From: Chloroflexota bacterium
Lineage (GTDB): Bacteria; Chloroflexota; UBA11872
DNA length: 64,000 nt
Assembly (NCBI GenBank): GCA_026706485.1
Contig: JAPOYR010000004.1
Coordinates: 1 to 64,000, forward strand
Direction of reading: 5' to 3'
Made by a program: the position numbers and the translations under genes. Positions 11,435 through 24,024 of this stretch are shown here, in pieces. The notes below the pieces were generated by a model, which made no database searches, had not been told where the DNA came from, and saw only the letters and a program-made list of their open reading frames with translations. Position 1 is the stretch's first letter, and each line of letters opens with the position of its first letter.

Positions 11435-12076
11435 TCACGGCGGCCCCGAGGGCATGGCGGCAAGCCGCTGCATGGCCGTGGGCAGACGACCGGCGTCCAG
11501 GCGCTGGCGGATGGCCTGGGCGCACTCCCGGGGACTCATCGCGGACGTGTCGACTTCGAGGTCGTAGATACCGGGCTGGTGGACTTCACGCTGCCAGCGT
11601 TCCGCGCCTGACTCGGAGAAACCCTCCGACCGGCTCTCGCCCCAGCCCGTGGCTCGACGGCGCTCCAGAATGACCTCGATTGGGCAGCGCACGCCGACAA
11701 GAAGCACGGGCAGGCCGCGCAGCCGCCGGGCGCAGTCGGGCAGGATTCCCCGCGGCACGGCGAAGCCGTCGTGGTGGCCGAAGTCCGATACGACGTTCAG
11801 ACCCTGGCGGCTGTGGGCGGCGATGGACTCGTAGAGTGCGGCGTAGAACCGCGCGACGAGCGGCTCGAGGTCCGGACGCTCGCCTCCAGGGCGCAGCCCG
11901 ATCCCCGGCGAATAGCGCCGCGGCATGACGCCGGACATGTGGACGTCCACGCCCAGGCTCATCCACGGTCCGTCGAAGGTGTCCTGGATCACGGCGGCGA
12001 TGCTGGACTTTCCCGACCGTGGGGCGCCGTTGAGGATGACGATCTGGCCCATGGCCGGCGGCTCGGCAGACGTCAT
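11435..12076 (-). CDS. chloramphenicol phosphotransferase-like kinase
   Basis: Protein of 213 residues with a P-loop GAPRSGKSS near the N-terminus, the SLGVDVHMSGVMP segment, the NVVSDFGHH strand and a VGVRCPIEVILERR lid, as in the CPT family of small-molecule kinases. It phosphorylates a hydroxyl of an unknown substrate; a resistance role is not implied by sequence alone. The ATG at 12076 overlaps the stop of the formylglycine-generating enzyme gene by four bases, so the two are translationally coupled. Confidence 0.78.
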   Translation of the reverse strand: MTSAEPPAMGQIVILNGAPRSGKSSIAAVIQDTFDGPWMSLGVDVHMSGVMPRRYSPGIGLRPGGERPDLEPLVARFYAALYESIAAHSRQGLNVVSDFGHHDGFAVPRGILPDCARRLRGLPVLLVGVRCPIEVILERRRATGWGESRSEGFSESGAERWQREVHQPGIYDLEVDTSAMSPRECAQAIRQRLDAGRLPTAMQRLAAMPSGPP

Positions 12077-13215
12077 GACGGCCAGACGCAGCGGAAGCCG
12101 ACGTTTCCTGCCGAGCTGTCCGGCGTGTTGGCGCTGCGCGCGGCGACGCGATAGCGGTTGCAGTAGGAGCGATGGCACAGGTACGAGCCGCCGCGCAACA
12201 CCCGCGCAGTGCCGGTGGACGGGCCCGCGGGGTTCTCGCGCGGGCCCTGGACGTGAAACGTGGGGTGGAACCAGTCGCCGCACCACTCCCACACGTTGCC
12301 GGCGGTGTTGAACAGGCCGTAGCGGTTCGGCGGGAACGCGTCCACCGGCGCGGTGGCGAGATACCCGTCGCCGAGCGTGTTGCGCCGCGGAAACTCGCCC
12401 TGCCAGATATTGCAGCGGTGCCGCCGGCGGGGGGTGAGCGTGTCGCCCCAGGGATAGCGCCGCTGCTCCAGGCCGCCTCGCGCGGCGTATTCCCACTCGG
12501 CCTCCGTCGGCAGGCGAGCGCCGGCCCAGGCGGCGAAGGCTGCCGCGTCGCGCCAGGACACATGCACCACCGGGTGGTCATGGCGGCCGTTCAGCGTGCT
12601 TCCCGGGCCTTCGGGGCATCGCCACGTGGCGCCGGTTACCGGCACCCACCAGGGCGTGGCCTCGGGGCGCTGGCGGTGACGCCGCTGGACGTCCTCGGAC
12701 ACGAGCAGGTGGAAGACGAAGGACCAGCCGAAGCGCTCGGCGTCGGTGACGTGTTGCGTCGCGTCGACGAATGCGGCGAACTGGGCGTTGGTCACCGCGC
12801 AGGCACCCACGCGGAAGGCGCTCACCGACACCCGGCGCACGGGGCCCTCCCCGTCCTCCGGAAAGCCGGCGGGGTCGTTGGAGCCCATCAGGAATGAGCC
12901 GCCGGGCAGGCGGGCGGGGTCGTCCGGGCGCGCGGCGCCGGATTTCCCCTCACCCCAACCCTCTCCCACGAGGGGAGAGGGGGCCGGACCCGCCTCGTGG
13001 GAAGCGGTGCTGGGATTGGCCGGGCCTGGATTCCGGTCTTCGCCGGAATGACGAGGTGTTTCGCGGGAGTCGCCCTGTGACCGCTGCTGCGCGGCGCCGG
13101 ATTTCCCCTCACCCCAGCCCTCTCCCACGAGGGGAGAGGGGGCCGGACTCGCCGCAGGATTCGAAGGCTGCGGGACGCAGCAGGGGGACGACGAGGGAAG
13201 CTGGTCGGCGGTCAT
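12073..13215 (-). CDS. formylglycine-generating enzyme (SUMF1/FGE) with repeat-built N-terminus
   Basis: Residues ~100-380 form an FGE-sulfatase domain: it starts RLPGGSFLMGS, has LPTEAEWEYAARGG and GNVWEWCGDW, and keeps both catalytic copper-binding cysteines, Cys347 and Cys352, in LCHRSYCNRYRVAARS. True FGEs oxidise a sulfatase active-site Cys to formylglycine; many homologues lacking these Cys do not. The first ~95 residues are translated repeat DNA: PAPSPLVGEGWGEGKSGAA occurs twice (24-42 and 77-95), with a family D copy between. No ATG, GTG or TTG lies between the second repeat and the domain, so translation must cross it. No sulfatase gene is in the window. Confidence 0.85.
   Translation of the reverse strand: MTADQLPSSSPCCVPQPSNPAASPAPSPLVGEGWGEGKSGAAQQRSQGDSRETPRHSGEDRNPGPANPSTASHEAGPAPSPLVGEGWGEGKSGAARPDDPARLPGGSFLMGSNDPAGFPEDGEGPVRRVSVSAFRVGACAVTNAQFAAFVDATQHVTDAERFGWSFVFHLLVSEDVQRRHRQRPEATPWWVPVTGATWRCPEGPGSTLNGRHDHPVVHVSWRDAAAFAAWAGARLPTEAEWEYAARGGLEQRRYPWGDTLTPRRRHRCNIWQGEFPRRNTLGDGYLATAPVDAFPPNRYGLFNTAGNVWEWCGDWFHPTFHVQGPRENPAGPSTGTARVLRGGSYLCHRSYCNRYRVAARSANTPDSSAGNVGFRCVWPS
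12946..12990. repeat. family B hairpin repeat inside the FGE reading frame
   Basis: CCCCTCACCCCAACCCTCTCCC followed by the GGGAGAGGG arm and GGCCGGACC. With its left flank (CGCGGCGCCGGATTT) it is almost identical to the copy at 13105-13148, indicating a ~60-bp duplicated unit. Confidence 0.85.
13028..13053. repeat. family D repeat between the two B repeats
   Basis: GGATTCCGGTCTTCGCCGGAATGACG, a hairpin of the D family, translated as part of RHSGEDRNPG in the FGE N-terminus. Confidence 0.75.
13105..13148. repeat. family B hairpin repeat, second copy in the FGE frame
   Basis: Same hairpin as 12946-12990 with one A-to-G change in the left arm; encodes the first PAPSPLVGEGWGEGKSGAA. Confidence 0.85.
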
Positions 13216-13261
13216 GCGGGCGGGAGGCCGCGGGTCGGGCGGAACAATCGGTGAGAGCGGG

Positions 13262-13783
13262 CTAGTCGGAACACTCGGATCTCGCGGCTGGATCCGGCAG
13301 GCCCACCACGCTCAGGACCACGGGGTTCGCGGCGTCGCCGAAGCCCAGGCGCAGCACGTCGGCGTCGAACTGTAGATCGGCAAAGGCCAGGAGCCGCCGC
13401 ACCCGGGCTTCGCCGTCCGGCTGGGAGGCTGCCGCGGCCAGCGCCTCGATCGCGTCTGGGCTGCCGATCTCCGTCAGCGCGCCGGGCAGCGGGTCGCCGT
13501 CAGTCGCGTCCTGGGCCAGGTGCATGACGAGTTGCGCCACCTCGGCTCCCAGGCGGTCCGCCAACGCGGCGAGCAGAAACGCGGGCGTGACCGTGTCGAG
13601 GGCGGTGGCAATGGCCATCACGTGCGCCATGCGCGGCGGGCGGCGCTCGCCCTTCTCGATGTGGCTCAGAAAGGAGTGGGACAGTCCGCAGCGCGCCGCC
13701 AGGTCCCGGTACGACAGCCCGCGCGCCAAGCGGGCGCGGCGCAATGCCTCGGGAAACCGCAGCCCAGCCTCCGCGCCTGCCAT
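13262..13783 (-). CDS. XRE-family transcriptional regulator
   Basis: Protein of 173 residues. The Cro/C1 helix-turn-helix (FPEALRRARLARGLSYRDLAAR then GLSHSFLSHIEKGERRPP) covers about 9-68; the rest is a helical, Ala-rich domain of unknown ligand or partner. The gene is divergent from a two-gene unit at 13910-15167 whose promoter lies in the shared 126-bp gap, so it probably controls that unit and itself. Confidence 0.8.
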   Translation of the reverse strand: MAGAEAGLRFPEALRRARLARGLSYRDLAARCGLSHSFLSHIEKGERRPPRMAHVMAIATALDTVTPAFLLAALADRLGAEVAQLVMHLAQDATDGDPLPGALTEIGSPDAIEALAAAASQPDGEARVRRLLAFADLQFDADVLRLGFGDAANPVVLSVVGLPDPAARSECSD

Positions 13784-13804
13784 GGGGACATTGTACGCGA
13801 ATGG

Positions 13805-13833
13805 TTGACAATCCAGGAGCCCGTGCGTACTCT
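13805..13833 (+). promoter_or_regulatory. sigma-70-type promoter
   Basis: A perfect -35 TTGACA at 13805-13810 and a TACTCT -10 at 13828-13833, exactly 17 bases apart, pointing at the gene at 13910. GTAC-containing motifs (TGTACGCG, GCGTACTC, GTGTACAG) flank and overlap it and could be operator half-sites for the divergent XRE repressor. Confidence 0.65.
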
Positions 13834-13909
13834 AGTCGTGTACAGCGCCGGAAGTGGTCAAGTCCCCAGGACCGGGCGACGAGCCGGCTTCACTCGCGAA
13901 GGAGATCGC

Positions 13910-14632
13910 GTGCTCGACGTGCAGATCGACGGCGCCGCGGCCGTCATCACCGCCCAATCAGAAGGACACGCCGACAAGGCCCGCTACGCTGTGCCGACGG
14001 CCGCGTTGCGCTCGGCGATGGCGCAAACGCGCGATGGGGTCGGCGTCACCGAGTTCGAGCGCTTTGAGCATGCCTGGGTGAGCCAGGTCATGGGCGCCGT
14101 GACCGATGCGGGCGTGGCTCCCGGCATCCGCCGCTACATCAGCCAGGCGTTCGACGACGAGGCGCTGGCGCGCGGGCTGTTGCTGCAGGGCCACTGGCAC
14201 TGCCCGCGTTGCGGGTCGCCGGGGAGCCAATGGTCCGTCGGCTGTCTCGCTGCCACTTGCCCGCATCCCGCGCCGACCGGCGATGCGCAGTGGGACCACT
14301 GCCGGGTCGCCACGCGCGACGACCTGCTCACCCTGATAGTCAGCGAGGGCTATCAGCGCGCCGGTCGACTGGCGTCGGGCGCCGACGTCCAGGCCCTGGA
14401 CGCGGAGTGGCAGACCCTGCTGCGAGGGGCGCCGCCGGCGCTGGCCGGGGAGCTGTCCCGCTGGGTCGCGCGCCTCCACGAGGCCTATGCCGCGCGCACC
14501 ACCGACGCGCTGATGTTCGCTGCGCGCCTGGGACACGCCATCACCCTCGCCGACGAGCTCGACCCGGAGCGCCAGCTTGAATCCGCCCTCTCGGCCGCGG
14601 GCTACGCCGCCCGCGCCAAAGCCGTTGCCTAA
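13910..14632 (+). CDS. unrecognised protein with central Cys4 zinc-finger-like knot
   Basis: Protein of 240 residues beginning GTG at 13910, five bases after AAGGAG. The middle holds Cys98-X2-Cys101-X10-Cys112-X4-Cys117, a likely zinc site, between two helical regions. No family recognised, no signal peptide, no membrane segment. It is the first gene of a two-gene unit under a strong promoter and next to a divergent XRE repressor. That organisation resembles a toxin, phage or defence cassette, but nothing in the residues proves it. Confidence 0.65.
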   Translation: MLDVQIDGAAAVITAQSEGHADKARYAVPTAALRSAMAQTRDGVGVTEFERFEHAWVSQVMGAVTDAGVAPGIRRYISQAFDDEALARGLLLQGHWHCPRCGSPGSQWSVGCLAATCPHPAPTGDAQWDHCRVATRDDLLTLIVSEGYQRAGRLASGADVQALDAEWQTLLRGAPPALAGELSRWVARLHEAYAARTTDALMFAARLGHAITLADELDPERQLESALSAAGYAARAKAVA

Positions 14633-14642
14633 AGGAGAATCC

Positions 14643-15167
14643 ATGACCGACCACGCCGCCGAAGCCGCCGCCGCCGTCACCCAGGAATCCGTCGAGGCGA
14701 CACCGCAGGACTTCGAAGCCGCGGTCGACCGGGAGGTCGCCGCCCGCGTCGATGCAATCGAGCGCCGCTGGCAGTCGAAGAAGGACCGGGAGGTCCATCG
14801 GGAGCGCCTGCGCTCGCAGACGGCCGCCGCGGCCTCGGACGAGGAGATCACGGCCTGGGTGGCCGACGCCGACCCCGCCGACGTTGGGCGCTGGCTCAAG
14901 GACAAGCTCGCCGCGCCCGCCGACTCGCCACCGGACCCCGACGCCACGAAGGGCGACGAGTACGTCGAGGGTCCGGCGGACGCGCCATCTCAAGCGGCCG
15001 CGCGGCAGCAGCTGGCCGAGGCCCGCGCGACCGAGCCCAGCCCCGACCTCGCGCCGTCCATGGCCACGCCGGTGGACGCCTTCCAGTCAATCGAGGCGCG
15101 GTTCGCCCGCGGGGAGATAGGCCTGGACGTGTACGAGGCCGCCCGGAAGAGGCGCGGGCTGGACTAG
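14643..15167 (+). CDS. acidic coiled-coil-like protein, unrecognised
   Basis: Protein of 174 residues, ATG at 14643 after a strong AAAGGAGAAT site, ten bases behind the zinc-knot gene. The N-terminal half is charged and helical (about 20-65); the middle is Pro/Asp-rich and probably disordered; the end VYEAARKRRGLD is basic. The composition recalls phage scaffolding or adaptor proteins, but I cannot assign a family. It very probably acts with the preceding gene. Confidence 0.65.
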   Translation: MTDHAAEAAAAVTQESVEATPQDFEAAVDREVAARVDAIERRWQSKKDREVHRERLRSQTAAAASDEEITAWVADADPADVGRWLKDKLAAPADSPPDPDATKGDEYVEGPADAPSQAAARQQLAEARATEPSPDLAPSMATPVDAFQSIEARFARGEIGLDVYEAARKRRGLD

Positions 15168-15181
15168 ATTCGCGGGGCGCT

Positions 15182-15206
15182 GCGGGCGGGGTTGAAACCC
15201 GCCCGT
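15182..15206. repeat. family A palindrome, imperfect
   Basis: GCGGGCGGGGTTGAAACCCGCCCGT, an imperfect version of the GGGCGGG...CCCGCCC repeat, between the XRE-linked unit and mtnA. Confidence 0.7.
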
Positions 15207-15269
15207 ACCCGACGCGGCTGACGGGACCCATGGCTATACTCGCGGGCCATCGCCCGAGTTGCCTGCCCC

Positions 15270-16324
<1,055 letters not shown>

Positions 16325-16325
<1 letters not shown>

Positions 16326-17212
16326 TGGCCGGCGTGGTCGGTGGAGATGCGCGCGCCCGAGTCGGGGTCATCGGCGGCAGCGGCTTCTATCAGATGCCCG
16401 GCCTGGAGGACCGCCGTGAGGTCGAGATCGACACCCCGTTCGGCGCTCCTAGCGACAGCCTGGTCGTGGGCGTGCTCGACGGGGTGGAGGTGGCCTTCCT
16501 GCCGCGCCATGGCCGGGGGCACCGAATCTCTCCCACCGCCCTCAACGTGCGCGCCAATATTTGGGCGCTCAAGTCGCTGGGCGTCGAGTGGGTGCTGGCC
16601 GTCAGCGCCGTGGGCAGCATGCGCGAGCGCATCCCGCCGCTGGACGTGGTGATTCCCGACCAGCTCATCGACCGCACCCGCGTGCGGCCCTCGACATTCT
16701 TCGACGAGCCGGGATTGGTCGTGCACGTGGGGATGGCCGACCCCTTGTGCCCACATGTCCGGAGCGTCCTGGCCGATGCGGTGGGGGGCGCCGGGGGCAA
16801 CGTCCATCGAGGCGGCGCCTACGTTTGCATCGAAGGGCCGCAGTTCTCCACGCGCGCCGAGTCCGAGCTGTACCGCTCGTGGGGCGTGGACGTGATCGGC
16901 ATGACCGCGCTGCCCGAGGCGCGCCTGGCCCGCGAGGCAGAGCTTTGCTACGGCGTCATGGCCATGGTCACGGACTACGACGTCTGGCACGAGAGCGAGG
17001 AGCCGGTGACGGCCGCCATGGTGGTGCAGAACCTCCTGGCCAACGCCGAGCTGGCGCTGCGGGCGGTGCGGACGGCGATTCCCGAGGCGGTGCGGCAGCC
17101 CCGGGACTGCGAGTGCGGCTCGGCGCTCGCCGCGGGCATCATCACCGCGCCGGAGGCCATCGATCCCCAGGTCCGAGAGCGGGTGGCGCTGCTGGTGGAG
17201 CGATATCTGTGA
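16325..17212 (+). CDS. mtnP: S-methyl-5'-thioadenosine phosphorylase
   Basis: Protein of 295 residues cleaving methylthioadenosine with phosphate to adenine and methylthioribose-1-phosphate, the substrate of the upstream isomerase. PNP/MTAP class marks include VIGGSGFY, PRHGRGH, NVRANIWALKSLGV, the purine-site IEGPQFSTRAES and GMTALPEARLARE. The GTG start at 16325 shares its G with the TAG stop of mtnA; a second GTG three codons later is possible. The C-terminus has a CECGSA pair of cysteines. Confidence 0.92.
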
Positions 17213-17244
17213 ACGACCCGCGGGCGTGGGTGGTGGGGGCCAAT

Positions 17245-17388
17245 CCCCTCACCCCAGCCCTCTCCCCAAGGGAGAGGGAGCCGGACCGGAGCTCCTCGCA
17301 TTCCGGCCCTTTGCCTCATGGGGAGAGGAGGACGGACCGGACCACCCCTCACCCCAGCCCTCTCCCTCAAGGGGAGAGGGAGCCGGAT
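17245..17388. repeat. two family B repeats between mtnP and the kinase gene
   Basis: Clear hairpin copies at 17245-17288 and 17345-17388, with a degraded third (CCTCATGGGGAGAGGAGG) between them. They fill the 181-bp gap inside the presumed operon. Confidence 0.8.
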
Positions 17389-17393
17389 CCGTC

Positions 17394-18353
17394 GTGAGCG
17401 TCGTCATCGTTGGCACCGTCGGCATCGACGACATCGTGGCGCCGGCGGGACAGGTCACGCGGGTCCTGGGCGGGTCGGGGACGTATGCCGCCCTGGCGGC
17501 GCGGCTATTTGCCCCAACCGCGCTGGTGAGCGTGGTGGGCACGGATTTCCCGGAAGCCCATCGGCAGTTGCTGGAGGCGCGCGGCGTCGACCTGGCCGGC
17601 CTCGACGTGGTGGAGGGCGCGACGTTCCGCTGGGGCGGGCGCTATCACGAGGACCTCAACACGCGCGACACGGAGTTCGTGGAGCTGAACGTCGTCACCG
17701 CGTTCACCCCGCGCATCCCCGCGACGAATGCGGACTACATCTTTGTGGGCAACATCGAGCCGGGGATTCAGCTGAGCGTCATGGAGCAGCTAGACCCGGC
17801 GGCGTATGTGGCCACGGACTCGATGGACCACTGGATTCGCGGCCAGTCGGCCGAGCTGGCCGAGGTATTTCGCCGCAGCGCGCTGGTGGTGCTCAACGAC
17901 CAGGAAGCGCGGATGTTCAGCCGCGAGACGCGCGTGCCCAAGGCGGTCGGCCCCATCCTGGCGCTCGGCCCGCAGGCGGTGGCCGTGAAGCTGGGCGAGT
18001 ACGGTGCGGTGCTGGCGCACGGCGACGAGTGGTTCTCCGCGCCGGGCTATCCCCTGCCCGAGGTCGTGGATCCGACGGGCGCGGGCGACGCCTTTGCCGG
18101 CGCCATGCTGGGCAGCTTGGCCGAGGCGGGGGCCTTCGGCGGGGGGCGCGGAGGTGGCGGAGGGGACGACCCCTCACCCCAACCCTCTCCCGCAAGGGGG
18201 AGGGGGCACGCCGACCTGCGGCGGGCAATCGTTTATGGCAGCGTCGCGGCGTCGTTTACAGTTGAGGCGTTTGGCGTCGAGCGCCTGGCCGCGGTTACGC
18301 GCGAGGATGTGGAAGCCCGTTACGCCGAGTTCAAGGAGCTCGTTGCGTTCTAG
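17394..18353 (+). CDS. PfkB-family (ribokinase-like) carbohydrate or nucleoside kinase with in-frame repeat insertion
   Basis: Protein of 319 residues. Start chosen at GTG 17394 ([13 protein letters not shown]), because everything upstream in frame is family B repeat. The N-terminal GGSGTYAA glycine motif and the C-terminal anion-hole/catalytic motif [11 protein letters not shown] (about 225-235) mark PfkB kinases. Between the helix after that motif and the expected LRRAIVYGS helix lies ~25 residues ([21 protein letters not shown]), which is a family B repeat read in frame. Placed between mtnP and ahcY, it may phosphorylate adenosine or a methylthio-sugar; that is inference from context. Confidence 0.82.
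18171..18210. repeat. family B hairpin repeat inside the PfkB kinase gene
   Basis: CCCCTCACCCCAACCCTCTCCC with its GGGGGAGGGGG arm; length keeps the reading frame open and in phase. Confidence 0.85.
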
Positions 18354-18394
18354 GCGCCGGATGGCGACTGGACTCGCGCGACAAGGAGAATCGC

Positions 18395-19666
18395 ATGGCC
18401 GCATCGGATAGCTCGTTCGAGATCGCCGACGCCGGGCTCGCCGGACTCGGCATCCGCCGCGTCCAGTGGGCCGATCAATCCATGCCGGTGCTGGCGAGCA
18501 TCCGGGAGCGCTTCGCGCGCGAGCGGCCCCTGGACGGTCTGCGCGTCGGCGCTTGCCAGCACGTCACCACCGAAACCGCCAACCTGATGCGCACGCTGCA
18601 GGCCGGCGGCGCCGAGGTGACGCTGTGCGCCTCGAACCCGCTGAGCACCCAAGACGATGTCGCGGCCGCCCTCGTCCACGAGTACGGCGCCGCCACCTAC
18701 GCCATCAACGGCGAGGACTCCGAGGTCTACTACGACCACATCGAATCGGTGCTGAACACGCGCCCGCATCTCACGATCGACGACGGCGCCGACCTGGTCT
18801 CGACCTTGCACACGGACCGCACGGACGTCATCGGCGACGTGCTGGGCGGCACCGAGGAGACCACCACCGGCGTCATTCGCCTGCGGGCCATGGCGGAGCA
18901 GGGCGTGCTGAAGTACCCCATCGTGGCCGTGAACGAGGCCATGACCAAGCACATGTTCGACAACCGCTACGGCACGGGGCAGTCCACCATCGACGGCTTG
19001 GTGCGCGCCACCAACATCCTCCTGGCCGGGCGCAACGTCGTGGTCGGCGGCTACGGCTGGTGCGGGCGCGGGCTGGCCAGCCGCGCGGCCGGCATGGGCG
19101 CCCACGTGATCGTCACCGAGGTCGACCCCGTGCGCGCGCTGGAGGCGCTGATGGACGGCTTCCGCGTCATGCCGATGCAGGAGGCGGCGTCGGTGGGACA
19201 CGTGTTCGTGACCGTGACCGGCGACAAGCACGTGATCGACCGTCCCCACTTCGAGGCCATGCCCGATGGGGCGATCCTGGCCAACTCGGGGCATTTCGAC
19301 ATCGAGATCAATATCGAGGCGCTGGAAGACATGGCGGTGGAGGTCGATGAGGCCCGGCCCTTCGTCGACGAGTATCGGCTGGCCGACGGCCGCCGCATTT
19401 TCCTGCTGGCCCAGGGGCGGCTCATCAACCTGGCGGCCGCCGAGGGGCACCCGGCCAGCGTGATGGACATGAGCTTTGCCAACCAGGCGCTGGCGATCGA
19501 GTACCTGGCGTCAAACGCCGGCGACCTTGCGCCCGACGTGTACGACGTATCCGGGGACATCGACCGCCGGGTCGCCACGCTGAAGCTGGAGGCGATGGGC
19601 GTGGCCATCGACACGCTGACCGAAGAGCAGGCCGCCTACCTGTCCGGCTGGCAGGAAGGGACCTAA
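18395..19666 (+). CDS. ahcY: S-adenosylhomocysteine hydrolase
   Basis: Protein of 423 residues that splits S-adenosylhomocysteine to adenosine and homocysteine using bound NAD. Visible: [14 protein letters not shown] and [15 protein letters not shown] at the N-terminus, [16 protein letters not shown]-like [17 protein letters not shown], the NAD fold [11 protein letters not shown], and [17 protein letters not shown]. It is the short bacterial/archaeal type lacking the ~40-residue insertion of many bacterial enzymes. AAGGAG precedes the ATG. It shares a row with metK, so SAH removal and SAM synthesis are probably co-expressed. Confidence 0.95.
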
Positions 19667-19719
19667 GCGATCAGCCCGAGGCCGCGACGGGCGGCGCCCC
19701 GCAATTGGGAGAGAGCAGC

Positions 19720-20934
19720 TTGAGCAATACGTTCATGCAGGCGCCGCGCCTGCTGTTCACGTCGGAGTCGGTGACCGAGGGCCATCCGGACAAGCTCTGC
19801 GACCAGGTGTCGGACGCTGTGCTCGACGCGTTCCTGGCCGCCGATCCCGAAAGCCGGGTGGCGTGCGAGGCGGCCACAACTACGGGCCTGGTGCTGGTGC
19901 TCGGCGAGATCACTTCGAAGGCCCCCGTCGACGTGCGCCGCGTCGTCCGCGACACCGTGCGCGAGATCGGCTATACGGCCTCCGAGTTTGGCTTCGACGG
20001 CGAGACCTGCGGCGTGACGGTGGCTCTGAATGAGCAGTCGGCCGACATCAAGCAAGGCGTGGACGAGGCGCTGGAGGTGCGGGCCCTCGACGGCGACTAC
20101 GACGACATCGAGGCACTGGGCGCGGGCGACCAGGGAATGATGTATGGCTTCGCCTGCGATGAGACTCCGGAACTGATGCCGGCGCCTATTGCGCTGGCGC
20201 ATCGCGCCGCGCGGCGGCTGGCCCAGGTGCGCAAGGACGGCACACTGGCCTGGCTGCGGCCCGACGGCAAGTCGCAGATCACCGTGGAATACCGCCACGG
20301 GCGGCCCGCGCGGGTCGACAGCGTGGTCATCGCGGCCCAGCACGATCCCGACATCGGCAACGACGCCATCGAGCGCGCCATCGAGGAATCCGTGATCCGC
20401 GAGGCGATCCCCGCCGACCTGCTCGACGCCGACACCGGCATCATCGTCAATGGCACCGGACGCTTCGTGGTGGGCGGGCCGATGGGCGACGCGGGTCTTA
20501 CCGGACGCAAGATCATCGTGGACACCTACGGCGGCATGGCGCGCCACGGGGGCGGCGCTTTCTCCGGCAAGGACCCGACGAAAGTCGACCGCTCGGCGAA
20601 CTACGCGCTGCGGTGGATCGCGAAGAACGTGGTCGCCGCCGGGCTGGCGACGCGCTTCGAGGTGCAGGCGGCCTATGTGATCGGCAAGGCCGAGCCGCTG
20701 TCGCTGAATATTGAGACTTACGGTACGGGCACCGTGTCCGACGATCGCATCGAGGCGGCCATCCGTGACACGTTCGACCTGCGGCCGGGCGCGATCATCC
20801 GCGACCTCGACCTGCGCCGTCCGCTCTACCGCCAGGTCGCGGCGTACGGCCACTTCGGCCGCGACGATTTGGACGACATCCCCTGGGAGCAGACCAATCG
20901 CGCCCCTGAGCTGGCGCGATTGGTCGGGCGATAG
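19720..20934 (+). CDS. metK: S-adenosylmethionine synthase
   Basis: Protein of 404 residues forming SAM from methionine and ATP. Motifs: [18 protein letters not shown] (ATP site), [23 protein letters not shown] and the P-loop-like [16 protein letters not shown]. Start chosen as TTG at 19720 with GGGAGAG six bases upstream; a TTG five codons earlier is possible but lies within that site. Last gene of the SAM cluster, 53 bases after ahcY. Confidence 0.95.
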
Positions 20935-21152
20935 TCGTCGCTCGCGGGGCGCGTCGCGCTGCGAAGTGCGGCGCGCAGGCGGCGGGCCCCGATGGCTCGC
21001 GTGAACCTTTCGTCACGCGGCACGCTCGGGCGGCGCTGCCTATACTGAAGGTGCTGTCACCAGGCGGGCGAGCGATTCAGGAACAGGTCAGGCGAGTCGC
21101 GATTTCGGCGCCGGGGCCTCACGCGGGGCGACCGGCGAGCCTGAGCACCCCG

Positions 21153-23009
21153 ATGCGACTGGGCGGAACCCTGCTGCTTGCGGCATTGCTGGCTCTCGGA
21201 GTCGTGGGTCCGGTCGGGTTGCTGGCGCAGTCCGCGACGGGGTTCGACTCGGTGCGGGTGGTCAGCTCGGTGCGGACGACGGACGCGGCGAACCCGGCGC
21301 TGAGCCACAACATTCCCCGGCTCGAGGTGACGATCGCCGGGCAAACGCTTACCGCCGACTTTGCGGCCTTCTATGACTCCAGCGGCGGTTTGACGCGGTG
21401 GGGGTTGCCGACCTCCGAGGTGTTCCAGGAGGAAACCGGCGCGCTGACCCAGTACTACCAGCGGGGCGTGGTGGACTTCCATCCGCGGACCGATCTCGGC
21501 GGCATCTATGTGATGGAACGGCGGCTGGCCTGGGACTACTTCGGCGGCGGCATTGCCGGCAGCGTGGACATGGGCGTGGAGCCCGGGACCAGCAACAACA
21601 ACTCAGGCGAGGAGCACGGACCGTGGGGACACAAGGTCTCCAACTTCTCGGTGGGTGGGGTGTGGACAGGGTTTCTGAACTTCTTCCGGACCTACGGCGG
21701 CGTGGACGCCTTTGGCTTTCCCAAGACGGAGGCGCGGATCGATACGAACCGGCCCGGCACGCTGCACATCCCCGCGGCTACGACCGGATTCATCCGGCAG
21801 TATTTCCAGGCGGCGGTCCTGGAGCATCACCCGGGAGCCGGCGTGCGGCTGCGGCTGCTGGGCGACGATCTGCGCAACCGCCTCTATCCCAATGACACTT
21901 GGCAGGGAATCTCGGCTTTCAACGCGGTGGCGCCGCTCACCGACGGCGCGGAGTACCAGGTTGAAGTCGTCGACCTGACCCCGCCCCCACCGCCAACGCC
22001 CACCGCCGGGGCTGTCACGCCGGGAACCACGACTCCCGCCGCCACGCCGGCGGCGACCACGCCGAGCCTCACCAATGAGCTGGTGGTGGTGGGCACGACG
22101 GACGCGGGGCTGGCGGTCTACGACGGCGCATGGCACAGCATCAAGGCTGAGGACACGGACCTCGTGGATAACCAAATCCAGGCGCTGCACGTGGACGGCG
22201 ACGGTCAGATCTGGGTCGGAACGCCGGTGGGCGCGAGCAGGATCGGGCGGGATGGCAAGGGGGTTGTCTACACGCTGGATTCCACCAACCGGGGCCTGGG
22301 GTCGAACGACGTGCAGGCCATTGCCGGGGGCCGCGCGAGCAACGTGCTCTATATGGGGCACCCGGATCAGGGCGTGAGCATTCTGGCGGGGACGGCGGCG
22401 TGGGACCGGAAGCGGCCGGACAACTCGGAGCTGCCGGATCTCGACGTGCGCGACATCTTCGTAGTGGATGAGAGCCTCGGGCGGGTGTGGTTCGCCACTC
22501 GCCAGGGCGCGGCCCTCTACGACCAGCGGACGGATACGTGGCCGCGCTTCATCACCCGCGCGATGATTCCCGAGGTGATCCGGGACAACATCACGTCGGT
22601 AGCCGTCGACAGCGGCGGGCGCCTCTGGCTGGGATTGCTCAACGAGGGCGTGGTGCACTCGGCCAACCTCGTCACGTGGGTCCAGCTGGGGACGAGCGAA
22701 GGGCTTGGGAGCGAGGAAGTGCGGGACCTGCTCGTCGCCTCGAACGGCGACGTGTGGGTCGCGACCGCGAGCGGCGTGAGCCGCGTCGTCGACGGGGTGG
22801 TCACCACCTACACGACGGGAAACTCGGCTCTGCCGGCCGACGGCGCCCACGCACTGGCGGAAACGGCCGACGGGCGCGTGTGGGTGGCGACGGACGGCGG
22901 GGTGGGGGTGTTCGACGGAAGCTCGTGGACCTCCTTCACCACGGCCGGCGGCCTGTCCAGCGACGCGACGACGGCAATCGCGGTGGTGCCGGCGGTCGCC
23001 GGGACGTAG
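21153..23009 (+). CDS. secreted LGFP-like / two-component-propeller repeat protein
   Basis: Protein of 618 residues. A signal peptide (MRLGGTLLLAALLALGVVGP...LLAQ) fixes the ATG at 21153. The N-terminal half has repeats of the type RWGLPTSEVF...QYYQRGVVDFHP and FGFPKTEARI...RQYFQAAVLEHHPG, like LGFP cell-wall repeats. A Pro/Thr linker (about residues 285-315) joins a C-terminal seven-blade-like propeller with recurring IWVGT..G / VWVAT..GV strands, as in Reg_prop sensors but without any kinase. Probably exported; ligand unknown. TATACT at 21041 is a possible -10. Confidence 0.75.
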   Translation: MRLGGTLLLAALLALGVVGPVGLLAQSATGFDSVRVVSSVRTTDAANPALSHNIPRLEVTIAGQTLTADFAAFYDSSGGLTRWGLPTSEVFQEETGALTQYYQRGVVDFHPRTDLGGIYVMERRLAWDYFGGGIAGSVDMGVEPGTSNNNSGEEHGPWGHKVSNFSVGGVWTGFLNFFRTYGGVDAFGFPKTEARIDTNRPGTLHIPAATTGFIRQYFQAAVLEHHPGAGVRLRLLGDDLRNRLYPNDTWQGISAFNAVAPLTDGAEYQVEVVDLTPPPPPTPTAGAVTPGTTTPAATPAATTPSLTNELVVVGTTDAGLAVYDGAWHSIKAEDTDLVDNQIQALHVDGDGQIWVGTPVGASRIGRDGKGVVYTLDSTNRGLGSNDVQAIAGGRASNVLYMGHPDQGVSILAGTAAWDRKRPDNSELPDLDVRDIFVVDESLGRVWFATRQGAALYDQRTDTWPRFITRAMIPEVIRDNITSVAVDSGGRLWLGLLNEGVVHSANLVTWVQLGTSEGLGSEEVRDLLVASNGDVWVATASGVSRVVDGVVTTYTTGNSALPADGAHALAETADGRVWVATDGGVGVFDGSSWTSFTTAGGLSSDATTAIAVVPAVAGT

Positions 23010-23328
23010 GGCTGGCCGGACCGTTGCGCCCGGGCCGGTAGTTGGCGACCCGCATCTCCGAATCGAGAACGGGGCCGGCTCGCCGCCGGAATGACAGAGG
23101 GGTCACGCCCGGGATGCCGCGTGCGGGGTCGTGAGGCGGAGATTCCTCGCTGCGCTCGGATTGACACGGCGGGATCCGTTCGTGGTGAGCCCTTCGGCAG
23201 GCTCAGGACAGGCTCTGTCGAACCACGAACGGGGGCGCAGGCGGTGGGGTCCTGGATTCCGGCGTGCGCCGGAGTGGCGGAGGACTATGCAAATCCCCGT
23301 GCTCGGGAACAGGCCCGGCCGGTGATTG
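23010..23328. repeat. repeat-filled 319-bp spacer
   Basis: Holds a half family C element (AGATTCCTCGCTGCGCTCGG, 23140-23166), a distinct stem-loop with 11-bp arms CCGTTCGTGGT / ACCACGAACGG (23176-23232) enclosing the smaller hairpin GAGCC...GGCTC, and a diverged family D copy near 23252-23278. No gene seen. Confidence 0.7.
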
Positions 23329-24024
23329 CTAGGTGCGGTGGGCTTGGTCTTGGCGGCTCTGGCGGTCGCGGAGGCGGGCGAGGCGCACGAACTCCAGCGT
23401 CATGCGGCGCGACTCGGCCGACAGCACGAGATCGTCGGCGAGATAGTGGCTGAGGCTGACCTCGAATAGGAGGTCGTCGACCTGTGGCTCGCTCATGCCG
23501 TAGCCGTCGCGGAGCACGGCGACCACGTCGGGGGCGCCGGCGGGGCGCTTGCCGGCTTCCAGGGCGCTCACCTGGGAGGGGCGCACGCCGGCGCGGCGGG
23601 CCGCCTCGCGCAGGTTCAGCCCCTGCGTGCGCCGATAGTCACGCAGGCGTTCGGCAAGTAATGCGGAATCCACATTCAGCGTGCCGTTGACGGCGTCGAT
23701 GGCGCCCGGACTGAGGGAGGCGCTGACGGTCTGCGAGATCGAGCGAATGGCGGACTCGGCGACTCGGGCAATCGATTCTTCCGCCAGGTGGCGCCGCGTG
23801 CGAGCCAGGTCCTCCGGCACATAGCCCGCCAGCACCAAGAGCTCGCGCGGATCCACGTCCAGCCCGCCGGCAATAGCTACCAGCGTGGCGACGGTTGGAC
23901 TCTTGTAGTCGCCGCTCTCGAGCCGCGAAAGATATGAGGGTGCGAGCCCGCAGCGCGCAGCGAGCTCAGCCTTCGACAACCGTCGCTGCTCGCGGAGCTG
24001 ACGGACGGCTTCAGCGATTCCCAT
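23329..24024 (-). CDS. XRE regulator with two helix-turn-helix domains
   Basis: Protein of 231 residues. HTH 1 (about 5-60) reads AVRQLREQRRLSKAELAARC then GLAPSYLSRLESGDYKSP; HTH 2 (about 125-180) reads LAERLRDYRRTQGLNLREAA then RAGVRPSQVSALEAGKRP. A helical linker separates them. Tandem XRE domains in one chain could bind an asymmetric or paired operator without dimerising. ATG at 24024 chosen over one 15 codons upstream. It follows the HAD/aconitase X genes on the same strand; targets unknown. Confidence 0.78.
   Translation of the reverse strand: MGIAEAVRQLREQRRLSKAELAARCGLAPSYLSRLESGDYKSPTVATLVAIAGGLDVDPRELLVLAGYVPEDLARTRRHLAEESIARVAESAIRSISQTVSASLSPGAIDAVNGTLNVDSALLAERLRDYRRTQGLNLREAARRAGVRPSQVSALEAGKRPAGAPDVVAVLRDGYGMSEPQVDDLLFEVSLSHYLADDLVLSAESRRMTLEFVRLARLRDRQSRQDQAHRT

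Follow-up and report, generated by a model that had tools for sequence, protein, structure and literature searches.

Triplex-motif repeats translated in frame as a variable loop of a PfkB-family kinase in a Chloroflexota genus, probably after one ancestral insertion

In-frame insertions of palindromic repeats into protein-coding genes are best known from Rickettsia. The Rickettsia palindromic elements (RPE) lie in frame in 19 reading frames (PMC2229807), and a guanylate kinase that carries an RPE is described, in work cited in that paper, as active with a changed affinity. G/C-rich intrastrand-triplex motifs (TM; earlier PIT elements) were found by Holder et al. (2015, PMC4666352) to lie exclusively between genes in E. 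coli K-12, triplex formation in vitro has been demonstrated for the E. coli motif (PMC4666352), and a related motif in methanogens was reported from intergenic regions only (PMC8044849). Here we examine a repeat in the window, a stretch of 64,000 nucleotides of a Chloroflexota bacterium (contig JAPOYR010000004.1), in which the insert sits in frame between two helices of a PfkB kinase, DPTGAGDAF and LRRAIVYGS. The repeat copy spans positions 18171-18206, inside the PfkB open reading frame, and this placement, proposed in an earlier note made from the letters of the window, is borne out. We find that the insertion is genus-wide and extends beyond the window genome.

The source genome comprises 13 contigs (3.37 Mb, 97.9% complete), and its relatives on record are Chloroflexi/Chloroflexota MAGs (among them COS3_bin_17, RHO3_bin_74 and the jk18x bins), whose isolate names suggest a sponge origin. 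In this genome the 21-mer CCCTCACCCYARCCCTCTCCC (≤2 mismatches) is found in 91 copies, compared with 0 for a reversed-pattern control. Across the 91 copies of this repeat, family B, we observe a stem CCCTCTCCC/GGGAGAGGG with a short loop and a third block CCCTCACCC (GGGTGAGGG on the complement), which is the sequence definition of TM/PIT, and judged by its letters the repeat is a TM. Family B occurs in most genomes of the taxonomic family and in many of the class, and its copy number varies approximately eightfold between species of the genus, from 25 in G003 to 204 in G002 (one mismatch). G003, with the fewest motif copies in the genus, is also the species with an empty kinase site. Complementing the first 21 family B bases gives GGGAGAGGGTTAGGGTGAGGG, which fits the G-quadruplex pattern perfectly, with four runs and loops of 3 nt. 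The REP-associated transposase (Y1_Tnp, PF01797) matches in 5 of 14 control genomes but nowhere in this genome (97.9% complete), and the column consensus of the 91 copies shows no GTAG or CGTC foot tag.

Upon comparing the repeat copies with the genes, using an ORF-bounded codon-usage test trained on the window genes and calibrated on random positions of the same DNA, we observed that the repeat copies avoid genes, with 2 of the 91 copies judged to be inside a gene versus 42% of random positions (P about 5e-19). The remaining 89 copies do not test as genic, and the two in-frame exceptions are the copy in the window kinase and a copy in a restriction-modification gene. The latter (L098:6339-6359; G000:C2:189638-189658) falls within a linker close to the C-terminal end of a type IIG-like restriction-modification protein; the length of this linker varies among relatives, and L155 has a different repeat-like peptide there. 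Looser thresholds flag three or four more copies (L086:17461, L086:17527, L107:1513, L114:1567) with weak coding scores, which were left out of the count.

Regarding the host protein (Table 1), PF00294 scores above cut-off, the GAGD anion-hole motif lies within the PfkB domain and DPTGAGD is conserved, placing it in the PfkB family. Its top solved relative is 3kd6, a Chlorobium tepidum nucleoside kinase with AMP (rank 1 by Foldseek), which shares the family and the fold (E 6e-123 by profile; TM-score 0.88-0.93) but lacks the insertion, having the short turn HLARCGNTSEAEMRKAV at this place. The genes mtnA, mtnP and ahcY adjoin the kinase, so an adenosine-kinase role is likely, and together with 3kd6 they indicate that the enzyme probably serves as the adenosine kinase of the adjoining S-adenosylhomocysteine and methylthioadenosine salvage genes. 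Two triplex-motif copies of the standard type take up the spacer that separates mtnP from the kinase, and the last of them ends ~10 nt 5' of the kinase start codon. Across five loci this spacer measures 184, 82, 184, 17 and 17 nt, the two shortest belonging to G003 and G004, and as a non-coding control for the reading frame these lengths were uninformative.

Table 1. Positions in the window of the kinase gene, its insert and the neighbouring features
Feature	Position	Strand	Basis
mtnA, S-methyl-5-thioribose-1-phosphate isomerase (context)	15270..16325	+	TIGR00512 1.2e-116, above cut-off
mtnP, S-methyl-5'-thioadenosine phosphorylase (context; real start slightly upstream)	16415..17212	+	TIGR01694 5.4e-89, above cut-off
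Two more triplex-motif copies (from 17246 and 17346) in the mtnP-kinase spacer	17246..17384	+	
PfkB-family nucleoside kinase gene, GTG start, 319 aa, carries the insert	17394..18353	+	Pfam PF00294 1.1e-25
28-codon segment where the empty site has 6 codons (GAIDGA); net gain 66 nt, 22 residues	18129..18212	+	Orthologue alignment, segment extraction
GC-rich left-hand part of the insert; three other species have a family A hairpin (TGGATTCCCGC..GCGGGAATGACGG) at this place	18144..18170	+	Module scan
Left two C-blocks of the triplex motif, CCCTCACCC-CAA-CCCTCTCCC	18171..18191	+	Exact match to the 91-copy genomic family; motif by comparison with PMC4666352
GCAA loop with right arm GGGGGAGGGGG; both derive from a second repeat copy	18192..18206	+	Comparison with the two-copy G005 insert
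ahcY, adenosylhomocysteinase (context)	18395..19666	+	TIGR00936 3.3e-190

We looked for orthologues in 60 relatives and built an alignment of 30 loci. We found an insert at the same kinase site in five of the six sampled species of the genus, adding 22 residues in the window species, 39 in G005, 65 in G002, 80 in G004 and 90 in G001. The sixth species, G003, has the empty form of 297 aa, reading SLAEAGAIDGADLRRAV, and in the sister genus 13 of 13 orthologues are empty (297-298 aa). The earlier note had set beforehand, as its check, an alignment in which the added residues would be exactly absent from close relatives, and this is what we observe; homologues with the same loop but without the repeat DNA, which it had named as evidence against itself, did not appear, since the repeat-free orthologues have an empty site. 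The empty sites also support its view that a non-coding repeat is tolerated in frame as a protein loop, whereas its estimate of ~25 added residues is corrected to a net 22 (66 nt) relative to the 297-aa orthologues. The larger inserts are composites of family A together with several copies of family B and of a C-richer variant. In the G004 insert (L005) part of the left boundary and the family A hairpin are present twice, which suggests that internal duplication also enlarges the array. A literature search on family A (GCGGGAATGAC) returned nothing relevant.

Upon closer examination of the window copy, its left arm derives from a standard copy and its right arm (GGGGGAGGGGGCACGCC) from a second, C-richer copy, and both source repeats are still kept by the sister species G005. 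If 51 nt between a pair of AGGGG repeats are taken out of the G005 insert, what is left matches the window insert at all but 6 of 84 nt; the deletion junction lies at AAGGGG 18194-18199. What had been taken for a complete family B hairpin (18171-18210), the same as the intergenic copies, is therefore a fusion of two repeats: the window copy is chimeric, a shrunken remnant that an in-frame deletion of 51 nt left behind, and it fits the triplex motif with one stem mismatch because its right arm is chimeric. The species with both repeat copies fall outside the pair formed by the window species and G005, and the window state is thus derived. In single-stranded form the window copy shows no folding advantage over shuffled sequence (z -0.99), and three intergenic copies scored -1.25, -1.63 and -2.47. 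A 33-nt GACGG-to-GACGG unit is present in L003, L004 and L005, and the window lineage probably lost family A when 33 nt between GACGG repeats were deleted in frame; the same unit would explain the absence of family A in both the window species and G005.

All five carrier inserts are open in frame. This is not free in every frame, since the +2 frame of four of the five has 3-5 stops. The kinase is under purifying selection, with a core dN/dS of 0.07-0.15 between species, carriers included, and the 46 codons 3' of the insert have a dN/dS of 0-0.2 in pairs without G004 and of 0.2-0.46 in pairs with G004; these low values show that the downstream part is still read in the same frame. To give five insert lengths, the first insertion must have been joined by four or more changes of length, all of them multiples of three, for which the chance without constraint is roughly 1% if the events are assumed to be independent. 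An insertion in a conserved enzyme is often inactivating, yet decay of the kinase into a pseudogene in the carriers is highly improbable, given 0 stops or frameshifts in the five carriers, an intact catalytic motif and the low dN/dS between carriers as well. The idea that the segment is removed after transcription or skipped in translation, by splicing or bypassing, draws on the hairpin potential of the repeat copies and nothing else; a frame kept open in every species would be needless if the segment were skipped, an Rfam scan of 12000-24000 returned no intron or other RNA family, and we regard this route as very remote. The misjoining of reads at the repeat, which the earlier note had named as a possible undoing, has next to no chance of being the explanation: short repeats can mislead short-read assemblers, but same-site inserts occur in five separate assemblies, which stem from several isolates and name their contigs in two styles, and the inserts differ in length while all being in frame with conserved sequence on both sides. 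The fold is predicted to be intact with a disordered loop. AlphaFold assigns most of the core of the window protein (+22) a pLDDT >90 and residues 250-268 of the insert <50, and in the 387-aa form (+90) the fold is kept with residues 251-325 <50, the insert lying in both cases between intact helices.

We consider it very probable that one ancestral insertion into a tolerant loop was followed by frame-preserving turnover, RPE-like in behaviour and unrelated in sequence. Dispersed palindromic repeats would have entered the turn between two C-terminal helices in the ancestor of most of the genus, in what we infer was a single first insertion. The turn would accept an extra disordered segment, so that the reading frame runs straight through, and this surface tolerance may be the reason that the insert survived. 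It would then have acted as intergenic repeat DNA, with copies gained, duplicated and deleted between short direct repeats, presumably through slippage or recombination, and with only frame-keeping changes surviving. Neutral tolerance of the loop is the most likely condition.

The number of gains is where the evidence diverges. Next to the insert the carriers have derived bases in common (+17, +18, -5 and -9), and at these positions G003 matches 12-13 of the 13 outgroups; the left-hand bases (-5, -9) could belong to the inserted DNA, and the right-hand ones (+17, +18) are in the gene proper. These bases favour a single gain, the site in G003 being the ancestral one. In the concatenated gene tree, however, G003 with its empty site falls nested among the carriers (modest support, 71 and 68). 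Single-gene trees disagree with each other; taken alone, the concatenated topology points to a loss in G003 or to two or more gains, and recombination between lineages would bring it into line with the flanking bases. Several independent insertions at a hotspot would fit this nesting, and later arrivals or duplications of family A and of extra repeat copies clearly happened. However, the five carriers have a common left boundary (TTCGG..GGGCGCGGA), and their derived flanking bases are absent from G003 and most outgroups, so that we find repeated insertion rather unlikely. Co-option of the Gly/Pro-rich repeat segment, kept for regulation, partner binding, translational pausing or spacing, is less likely still. 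The insert is kept in five of six species across a core dS of about 0.17-0.39, and one repeat frame is used throughout, with similar peptides in all inserts; on the other side, insert length varies fourfold and the content turns over, the segment is predicted to be disordered, the empty species and the entire sister genus manage without the loop, and dN/dS in the part of the insert that can be compared is about 0.6 for the two most closely related species, on only 5 changes. We give similarly little credence to a bolder form, in which the turn is a standing landing pad for arriving, duplicating and deleting triplex-motif repeats and the segment has gained a role in the genus, such as tuning the kinase or its partners.

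With a single ancestral insertion and neutral turnover as the preferred reading, a conserved enzyme with a floppy loop of species-dependent length represents a clear natural case of non-coding repeat DNA turned protein. The earlier description of the locus as a live example stands for the change from repeat to protein loop and not for a fresh arrival, as the insert is common to five species and has shrunk in the window lineage. The six species, one with an empty site and five with inserts of different lengths (+22 to +90 residues), make the cost or benefit of a new disordered loop testable in one small enzyme, and the same series allows triplex-motif instability to be tested as a driver of in-frame change in protein length. 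For annotation, it is a caution that peptides derived from repeat DNA are not always spurious.

Compared with the described systems, the kinase insert is like RPE in being a palindromic repeat in frame in a conserved gene, tolerated there (PMC2229807) and absent from orthologues, here those of G003 and the sister genus. The likeness to Rickettsia that the earlier note had drawn holds for this behaviour and not for the sequence family. RPE measure 105-146 bp and hit many genes (PMC2229807), whereas here the units are about 36-45 nt and 2 of 91 copies are genic, and unlike RPE the kinase insert is a composite whose length varies between species; RPE are here set apart by size and described structure. 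The enterobacterial ERIC/RU and YPAL elements, as PMC2229807 presents them (citing PMC2759123), are likewise small repeats translated through in-frame ORF fusions, but in the same account they are longer, MITE-like elements of other sequence, mostly with target site duplications. TM/PIT share the same three blocks, namely CCCTCTCCC, a short loop, GGGAGAGGG, a TTA or CCG-type spacer and GGGTGAGGG, of which family B is the reverse complement, and both are found in many dispersed copies and are associated with small deletions and rearrangement (PMC4666352). In contrast to the invariably intergenic motif of E. coli K-12, the window copy, chimeric and with its stem mismatch, lies in frame within a conserved enzyme. 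Overall, a repeat that crosses phyla, is unrelated to RPE and had been described as confined to intergenic DNA behaves in a Chloroflexota enzyme like the Rickettsia insertions.
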